Positions 61,991 to 64,000 of a stretch of DNA of 64,000 bases are shown here, one piece after another. Under the pieces are notes generated by a model that searched no databases, had not been told where the DNA came from, and saw only the letters and a list, made by a program, of their open reading frames with translations. How positions within the stretch are numbered: position 1 is the stretch's first letter; every line of letters starts with the position of its first letter. A program made the position numbers and the translations under genes. The stretch lies in the NCBI GenBank assembly GCA_902528175.1, contig CABZRN010000004.1, positions 1-64,000 of the forward strand. The letters are read 5' to 3'. Origin of the DNA: an uncultured Pelagibacteraceae bacterium. Lineage in GTDB: Bacteria > Pseudomonadota > Alphaproteobacteria > Pelagibacterales > Pelagibacteraceae.

Positions 61991-62571
61991 TTAATCTCCT
62001 GTAAATAGCTTTTGATTTTAGCAATTGGTAGTCCCATTATGGTATTTTTGTCTCCCTTTATTTCGTTAAACAATTTTTTTCCCTCACCTTCTATTTGATA
62101 GACATTGTATGCATAAAGAGTTTTATCAGATATTTTTGACAAATAATTTTTTAACTCACTGTCATTAAAATCTTTCATAATTAATTCCGCTTTATCAGTG
62201 TAATTCCATATCATATTGCCTTTTTTAGAAATACAAACTGAACTAATTAAGAAATGACTTTTACCACTCATTTTTTTCAAAATATTAAAGGCTTCTTCTC
62301 GTGATTTAGGTTTTGAGATAATCTGGCCATCTAAATCTATTAAGCTGTCTGCGCCTAAAACTAGTTCATCTGGGTTTTTATTGCTTATTTTGTTTGCTTT
62401 TAATTCTGCAAGGTTTTTAGATACTATTTCTGGTGTTGCGCCCTCTTTTAAAAGTGACTCCTTAATAACATCTTCATCAACTTTGGATGGTTCAACATTA
62501 CAAGAAATGCCATTCTCCAATAAGATTTTTTTTCTAACCTCGCTTTTTGAAGCTAATATTATTTTATTCAT
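61987..62571 (-). CDS. maf: Maf-like nucleotide pyrophosphatase
   Basis: IILASKSEVRKKILLENGI; LVLGADSLIDLDGQIISKP. Confidence 0.93.
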   Translation of the reverse strand: MNKIILASKSEVRKKILLENGISCNVEPSKVDEDVIKESLLKEGATPEIVSKNLAELKANKISNKNPDELVLGADSLIDLDGQIISKPKSREEAFNILKKMSGKSHFLISSVCISKKGNMIWNYTDKAELIMKDFNDSELKNYLSKISDKTLYAYNVYQIEGEGKKLFNEIKGDKNTIMGLPIAKIKSYLQEIK

Positions 62572-63388
62572 TATGATTAAATATGTCGTGAATTTTTAGT
62601 ATCGAGGCCGCAGTTTCTTCTACTGATTTTCTTGTAACATCTATTGTTGGCCAATTGTATTTTTGAAAAAGCTTTTTTGATAATTCTATTTCATTTTTAA
62701 TTTTTTCAAAATCAATGTAATTTTTGTTTTCATTCTCTTTTATAGATTGCATCCTGTTTTTTCTTAAGTCTACCAATCTATCGGGTTCTGCTGTTAAGCC
62801 TACAACACAAGTCAAATTTGGCTTTTCTTTTAAAAATTTTGGAACTGACTGTTCGTTAATTAATGGTATGTTGGAAATTTTCATACCCTTATTAGCTAAA
62901 TAAATTGAAGTAGGTGTTTTACTTGTTCTACTAACTCCCAATAAAATGATGTCAGATTTACCTATATCATCTAATGAGTTTCCATCGTCATGGTTCATAG
63001 TAAATTGAATAGCTTCAATTTTCTTATAATAATCTTCGTTCATAACATGTTGTCCACTTGGAATATGGTTCGCTTCTTGATTTAATAATTTTGAGAATGT
63101 TAAAATAAGATCTCCTAATACACCAAAACAAGGAATTTTTTTTTTGTTACATTCAGTTGATAAAAATTGAGCAAGTTTATTATCTACTATTGTATACAAA
63201 AAAATAGAATTCTTATTTTTAACGGAATTCTCTATGATTTTTAGAATTTGGTTTTCGGTTCGTGTGAAAGAGAAATAATGCGTTTTATAGTTGAAGTTTT
63301 TGAATTGGGCTTTAATAGCTAAGAATATTCTTTCCAGTGTCTCGCCAGTTGAATCTGAAATTAAATAAATTTCGTATGTATTACTCAT
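62564..63388 (-). CDS. ppsR: Pyruvate, phosphate dikinase regulatory protein (PPSR/DUF299)
   Basis: YLISDSTGETLERIFLAIKAQF; DIILLGVSRTSKTPTSIYLANKGMKISNIPL. Confidence 0.96.
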   Translation of the reverse strand: MSNTYEIYLISDSTGETLERIFLAIKAQFKNFNYKTHYFSFTRTENQILKIIENSVKNKNSIFLYTIVDNKLAQFLSTECNKKKIPCFGVLGDLILTFSKLLNQEANHIPSGQHVMNEDYYKKIEAIQFTMNHDDGNSLDDIGKSDIILLGVSRTSKTPTSIYLANKGMKISNIPLINEQSVPKFLKEKPNLTCVVGLTAEPDRLVDLRKNRMQSIKENENKNYIDFEKIKNEIELSKKLFQKYNWPTIDVTRKSVEETAASILKIHDIFNHNE

Positions 63389-63671
63389 GTATAATTAATA
63401 AAGAATTTTGTATTAATATTAACTTATAAACAAACTTACAAATTATAACGTCCAAAATCAAAAAAAAGCTTTTTAATAACATTTTAAAACATGTTTATAA
63501 CCAATATACCGTTTTTTGAATAAAATTATGTTATTTGTGATCATTCTTATTTTTTAAGATTAATTAAACAAATTAATTGTGAAAAAAATGTTATAAAAGT
63601 GTTAGAAAATAGTAATATTCAATATTAACATCCCTAATACAAATAATATAAATATTACTTATTCTATTATT
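63389..63671. other. Candidate chromosomal replication origin (oriC) between ppsR and hemE
   Basis: 283-bp very AT-rich non-coding gap between divergent ppsR and hemE; two inverted TTATAAACA 9-mers (63424-63432 +, 63492-63500 -); inverted repeat ATTAATT-AAACA-AATTAAT (63559-63577). Confidence 0.65.
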
Positions 63672-64000
63672 ATGACTGTTTTGTTGGACTGTATAAATAA
63701 AAGATCTAATACCAATTGTATATGGTTAATGAGGCAAGCTGGTAGATATTTACCAGAATTCAGAAAAATAAGATCAGAAAATTTAGATTTTATAAAATTA
63801 TGTCTTAATGAAAACTTATCATCCGAGATCACTGTACAACCGTTAAGAAGATTTGAAATAGACGCAGCAATAATATTTTCTGATATTTTATTAGTTCCCT
63901 ATGCCTTAGGACAAACAGTTAGCTTCAGGAAAAATTTTGGACCGATATTAGGTAATCTTGACTTAAATAAAATAGTTTTAACAAATGAAACAGAATTCGT
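63672..64000 (+). CDS. hemE: Uroporphyrinogen decarboxylase, N-terminal part (truncated by window edge)
   Basis: Translation [44 protein letters not shown]...[21 protein letters not shown]. Confidence 0.97.

Follow-up and report, generated by a model that had tools for sequence, protein, structure and literature searches.

The 283-bp spacer between the divergent genes ppsR and hemE (positions 63389-63671) is very probably the single chromosomal replication origin (oriC) of a SAR11 bacterium, retained at the position of the ancestral hemE/COG1806 origin of alphaproteobacteria. The initial annotation had placed a replication origin between these genes, and that proposal is supported by nucleotide skew in a complete congener, by the conserved length of the gap and by sites in the DnaA-box frame at fixed positions within it. 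The evidence is where the spacer lies, its conservation and its enrichment in boxes, its persistence where flanking genes are lost, and skew and gene polarity. Taken alone, the sequence of the window is modestly indicative; the case is carried by its relatives.

The spacer and its setting

The window, i.e., the whole stretch of DNA analysed, opens an 86-kb contig (C4), of which it covers the first 64 kb; the genome (G000) is 62% complete. Among public sequences, those nearest to it come from uncultured Pelagibacteraceae, the SAR11 group. Gene order is hslVU-...-dnaQ-coaE-aroE-maf-ppsR, then the gap, then hemE-hemH-...-rho-mnmE-mnmG-rsmG-parA-parB. The spacer and its two neighbours are as follows:

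62564-63388, minus strand: ppsR (COG1806, DUF299), flanking gene; PF03618, E=1.9e-88; above the NF003742 cut-off
63389-63671, no strand: predicted chromosomal replication origin (the whole spacer); length kept, retained after flank loss, at the skew breakpoint of the congener G012
63672-64000 in the window, running on to C4:64676, plus strand: hemE, flanking gene; PF01208, E=1.6e-87; above the TIGR01464 cut-off

Profile matches and an open reading frame scan bear out the earlier description of ppsR and hemE as divergent genes around the longest non-coding gap: no other stretch of the window without an open reading frame of at least 60 aa is as long. The gap had also been described as very AT-rich, and it is, at 84% AT compared with 65-75% AT in 4-kb bins across the window. 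Alphaproteobacterial origins of the hemE/COG1806 type are recognized by a spacer of 200-1000 bp bounded by the two genes, by an AT content above that of the genome, by a box density above that of the rest of the genome and by a shift in GC skew; canonical DnaA boxes and sites for CtrA and IHF, taken up below, are further marks of the type. The gap has the first two properties; the box cluster and the skew shift are seen in G012, with coarse agreement on skew from a second genome, G068.

Retention of the spacer after loss of a neighbouring gene

Spacer length is 261-289 bp at all 76 relative loci that have both genes, while over the same loci the identity of ppsR falls to about 65% and that of hemE to about 53%. 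Lineages that lack ppsR or hemE beside the gap provide a natural experiment. In the sister family f2, a Pfam search found ppsR absent from three genomes, and a protein search of 24 genomes gave no match to it. The f2 spacer sits instead between hemE and maf, and measures 273-280 bp in the four loci examined (L196-L199). In the genus g5 (L275-L276), hemE is displaced more than 500 kb from ppsR and the hem genes lie elsewhere; the spacer, of 353 bp and with three copies of TTATAAACA, is found between ppsR and rho. Hence, the spacer and not the adjoining genes is the conserved entity, and a divergent promoter would hardly be expected to survive both changes of flank.

DnaA-box-like sites

A motif search used 78 distinct spacers of the genus, trying all patterns of the form 4-N2-3 against the expectation of a second-order Markov model. 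The most enriched pattern was TTATNNACA, with 238 occurrences compared with 32 expected, a ratio that is not a probability since the spacers are phylogenetically related. TTATNNACA is the DnaA-box frame with an altered centre, mostly TTAT(T/A)AACA; the two central letters are TA at 81 sites, AA at 63, TC at 28, CA at 24 and CC at 2. With each strand counted, TTATNMACA occurs 2.77 times per genus spacer compared with 0.19 times expected from dinucleotide shuffles, and the gap is the sole place in G012 (1.34 Mb) with three TTATNMACA in 270 bp. The canonical box TTATNCACA is absent from the window's gap and present in 37 of the 78 genus gaps.

Alignment of the gap across relatives, a check suggested in the initial annotation, showed that its length is held and that sites in the DnaA-box frame recur at fixed positions. 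Conservation per column peaks at five box sites and at 63634-63649, and the middle of the gap (63506-63577) is variable. In window coordinates, the sites are:

63424-63432, plus strand: TTATAAACA, DnaA-box-like, in close relatives only (11/72)
63473-63481, plus strand: conserved box site 1, TTAATAACA here, TTATNNACA in 40/72 relatives; conservation peak
63492-63500, minus strand: conserved box site 2, TTATAAACA here, TTATNNACA in 39/72; conservation peak
63578-63586, minus strand: conserved box site 3, TTTTTCACA here, fitting TTWTNCACA as in 37/72; conservation peak
63600-63608, minus strand: conserved box site 4, degenerate here (TTTCTAACA), TTATNNACA in 20/72; conservation peak
63622-63630, plus strand: conserved box site 5, hemE-proximal, ATATTAACA here, TTAT(T)(A/C)ACA in 47/72; conservation peak

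Site 5 is the strongest conservation peak of the gap interior. Several of the conserved sites are degenerate in the window strain, which counts against the origin reading: among the five, only 63492 is an exact TTATNNACA, the site at 63578 fits TTWTNCACA, and the other three are off by at least one base.

Every motif listed in the initial annotation lies where it had been placed, and the motifs differ in weight. The two inverted TTATAAACA sites, read as DnaA-box-like, are both present (63424-63432 on the plus strand and, as the reverse complement, 63492-63500); two copies in the gap have p=0.0015, and two or more TTATNMACA have p=0.013, both in dinucleotide shuffles. The site at 63492 is broadly conserved, whereas that at 63424 is confined to the few close relatives listed above. 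The gap contains no perfect TTATCCACA box, as had been remarked, and this also counts against the origin reading. Two further candidates are present as described and were dropped as signals, since they are at chance level. These are the direct repeat AATATTAAC (63415-63423 and 63621-63629) and the ATTAATT/AATTAAT inverted repeat; an exact 9-mer direct repeat of some kind arises in 95% of shuffles of the gap, and a 7-bp inverted repeat within 20 bp of some kind arises in 91%.

Chromosome-scale evidence

Skew was computed on the complete congener G012 (1,343,202 bp); the window's own genome is 62% complete and its assembly lacks dnaA. Cumulative GC skew in G012 is lowest over a broad plateau at 1.23-1.29 Mb and highest at 0.616 Mb. 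A GC-skew minimum elsewhere on the chromosome had been named as evidence that would speak against an origin here; in G012, the minimum includes the homologous spacer, at about 1,262 kb. T/A skew at fourfold sites was fitted gene by gene on a 10-kb grid, with the two gene strands kept apart; the breakpoint is at 1,260 kb, and the corresponding G/C fit is broad. In G068, which is sampled at about 58%, the cumulative minimum is at 620 kb, the best G/C fit at 600 kb and the spacer at 605 kb. The GC statistics for this genome thus favour 600-620 kb, while its T/A fit is level across 600-690 kb and peaks at dnaA; this half-sampled genome agrees only coarsely with the gap as the origin.

About 62% of G012 genes are leading, i.e., transcribed away from the spacer, and 16S rRNA is likewise codirectional. 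A single parS with at most one mismatch occurs genome-wide in G012, 7 kb from the gap, and the predicted ParABS system of this genome is minimal. The window's own contig has a near-perfect parS, CGTTTCACGTGAAACA, inside rsmG/gidB at C4:71396 (L002:9396), next to parA and parB, both of which are Pfam matches. The parA, parB and parS elements therefore lie within tens of kb of the gap, as in a ParABS-linked origin.

At fourfold sites in G012, G and T are less frequent on the leading than on the lagging strand, against the usual polarity; that GC skew over the whole genome is nevertheless normal is due to gene orientation. Given this reversal, origin and terminus are told apart by gene orientation, rRNA, parS and boxes, all of which agree.

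One of four KOPS-like words tried, AGTAGGG, flips polarity at 586-649 kb in G012, where the antipode of the gap is at 590 kb. As a separate observation, 36 of its 41 sites are oriented away from the origin, in the direction of about 0.59-0.65 Mb, making AGTAGGG a candidate KOPS-like guide word for FtsK in SAR11. A search for a dif site with an E. coli-like consensus gave no convincing match.

A presumed unwinding region

Beyond site 5, towards hemE, lies a further conserved element:

63634-63648, plus strand: DnaA-trio-like run CTA-ATA-CAA-ATA-ATA, imperfect here; conservation peak; architecture as in PMC8287927

The layout sought was that of a BUS, with a DnaA box 0-16 bp from at least three NTN trinucleotides and facing the run. 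In the window, the box ATATTAACA is followed by 3 bp and then by CTA-ATA, a break at CAA, and ATA-ATA. The block reads CTACTAATACTA in several relatives, and a box followed by a trinucleotide run is clear in L065, L069, L196 and L197. Within the genus, the trio score is weak (4.65 compared with 3.77 in shuffles), and in 60 of 78 spacers the highest-scoring run sits 30-62 nt from the end next to hemE. Two f2 spacers have, at their very end beside hemE, a box-like stretch, CACAGG(C/T)ACAA and CTACTACTACTA; this is the textbook form of a layout of box, spacer and DnaA-trio known from Bacillus and many other bacteria (PMC8287927). Each of the two genomes has a single copy of the element CACAGG(C/T)ACAACTACTACTACTA. 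The string is absent from the other 22 of the 24 f2 genomes searched, so the textbook form is not general. From their sequence and arrangement, site 5 and the trio-like run are presumed to be the unwinding site.

This arrangement suggests a mechanism, in which DnaA binding, box affinity, the point of unwinding and the function of ParB are all predicted. DnaA would bind the five conserved sites in the DnaA-box frame (TTATNNACA, mostly TTATTAACA or TTATAAACA), which are in inverted and direct orientation, with an affinity probably below that for TTATCCACA. From the hemE-proximal, hemE-facing box at 63622, DnaA would polymerize onto the trinucleotide AT-rich stretch from 63634 onwards and melt it, allowing the helicase to load. 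Segregation of the new origins would then fall to ParB and parS, 7-8 kb away.

Alternative explanations

One alternative is that the gap is simply an extended promoter region between the divergent ppsR and hemE, its boxes serving as promoter or operator motifs. Divergent genes need two promoters, and an invariant CATGTATAA block adjoins ppsR; there may well be promoters in the gap as well as the origin. As the whole explanation this is very improbable, because the spacer keeps its size and boxes both where it lies between hemE and maf, ppsR being absent, and where it lies between ppsR and rho, with hemE in another place, the conserved blocks match TTATNNACA sites and not promoter spacing, and the gap coincides with a chromosome-wide skew breakpoint. 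A small RNA or riboswitch in the spacer would also be non-coding and length-conserved, and could explain the constant length, but the conservation consists of short 9-mers in both orientations around the variable middle, and the window has no Rfam match except one tRNA. We regard this as the least probable of the alternatives.

Alternatively, the true origin could be near dnaA, about 63 kb off and within the same broad GC-skew minimum. In many bacteria, oriC is beside dnaA, and the peak of the T/A fit for G068 falls there. In the fully sampled G012, however, the T/A skew fit is 11.7 log units worse at dnaA (1,199 kb), where there is no cluster of at least three TTATNMACA in 270 bp. Moreover, parABS adjoins the gap, and the alphaproteobacterial precedent is the hemE/COG1806 spacer (PMC1914354). 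An origin on the dnaA side is still less probable than a promoter region.

DnaA and its regulators

The initial annotation had suggested that the DnaA recognition sequence may have diverged. The DNA sites bear this out, with the central CC replaced, in most cases by TA or AA; for the protein the suggestion is unproven. The base-reading residues of DnaA, as listed in PMC5043019, are R399, P423 and R432-D433-H434-T435, and in a comparison of G012 DnaA with structure 1J1V all are identical to those of E. coli. Positions beside them differ, with GG before RDHTT changed to SN and one lysine lost. Deviations from TTATNCACA lower the affinity of DnaA (PMC5043019). Either weak boxes make up most of the origin or other residues have shifted the specificity, and the sequences are compatible with both. 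We tentatively suggest that the origin has shifted to boxes without the conserved central C (TTAT(T/A)AACA), such that DnaA reads a new site or almost all boxes are weak, their filling set by DnaA level or ATP state. If true, a weak-box origin would give unusually graded control of initiation in a slow-growing oligotroph.

GcrA is present in members of the order, and in five members no response regulator exceeded the NCBIfam cut-off for the CtrA equivalog. CtrA sites (TTAA-N7-TTAA) are not enriched, with one in the window and a genus mean of 0.45 compared with 0.27 in shuffles; such sites are dispensable in Ehrlichia ruminantium too (PMC1914354). IHF sites (WATCAN5WTR) are not enriched either (none in the window; genus mean 0.28 compared with 0.36 in shuffles), and each genome has three genes of the HU/IHF family. 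The lack of enrichment in both motifs is a further point against the origin reading. W-box and GANTC motifs are not enriched in the genus spacers. GANTC, the CcrM site, is nearly missing from them, at 0.05 per spacer compared with 0.16 expected, and SAR11 has a CcrM homologue (PMC3973325).

Comparison with known origins

The Caulobacter origin, known from experiment, and that of Rickettsia, defined in silico and partly tested, are both flanked by hemE and COG1806, and this arrangement is the inferred ancestral state in alphaproteobacteria (PMC1914354); SAR11 would therefore keep an ancestral origin. Cori of Caulobacter crescentus shares with SAR11 the hemE and COG1806 flanks, an AT-rich spacer with DnaA boxes, and parABS in the same downstream cluster. 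Unlike Cori, the SAR11 gap is shorter, has no TTATCCACA or TGATCCACA in the window, lacks W-boxes and is not enriched in CtrA or IHF sites, with GcrA present and no CtrA equivalog above cut-off. The Rickettsia prowazekii origin likewise has hemE and COG1806 flanks in an AT-rich reduced genome and was defined in silico. For Rickettsia, the motifs used in scoring were TTATNCACA and those of CtrA and IHF (PMC1914354), whereas the dominant box in SAR11 is TTAT(T/A)AACA. In Wolbachia, Ehrlichia and Anaplasma (COG1253-hemE), as in the hemE|maf arrangement of the SAR11 sister family, one flank has been replaced and the spacer is still beside hemE; there COG1253 was inserted, while in SAR11 relatives ppsR was lost (f2) or hemE displaced (g5).

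The Bacillus subtilis BUS resembles the SAR11 arrangement in having a box that faces a trinucleotide CTA run, with the textbook form in two sister-family gaps, but in the window strain the trios are imperfect and the nearest box is ATATTAACA. For the low-affinity DnaA sites of E. coli (I-sites and tau-sites) and Caulobacter (W-boxes), as for the SAR11 boxes, deviation from TTATNCACA implies weaker binding of DnaA. Low-affinity sites usually accompany strong boxes, whereas the SAR11 sites appear to be nearly all of the low-affinity kind.

SAR11 are among Earth's most abundant bacteria, and metagenomic estimates of their growth lean on a coverage origin and terminus that are usually fitted, not known. 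Published coverage gradients for SAR11 show a single origin and a single terminus (PMC9589681). Our literature search found no sequence-level account of a SAR11 origin; predictions of the Ori-Finder or DoriC type could exist. The new elements here are the box consensus, the map of conserved sites and the retention of the spacer after loss of either neighbour. A base-resolved origin with conserved sites provides a fixed anchor for peak-to-trough methods and a cargo for replicating plasmids in SAR11. It also makes it possible to test directly whether DnaA boxes can do without the central C when the base-reading residues of DnaA stay the same.

The hem block beside the gap

The hem block to the right of the gap (L002:1672-4601; C4:63672-66601) appears to be a swapped allele. 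Compared with close relatives, ppsR is about 96%, the gap about 93% (nucleotide) and rho about 98% identical, and hemE and hemH are about 75% and 79% identical. Between hemG and rho, opposite to hemG, lies a gene for a 138-aa membrane-like protein (L002:4185-4601) that matches no Pfam or NCBIfam family. The window genome has a flavodoxin-type HemG (above the NF008316 cut-off) where the relative L033 has HemJ (above the TIGR00701 cut-off). Another relative, L035, has the same HemG version with a different hemE, and it alone, among 16 close relatives compared, has the 138-aa protein.
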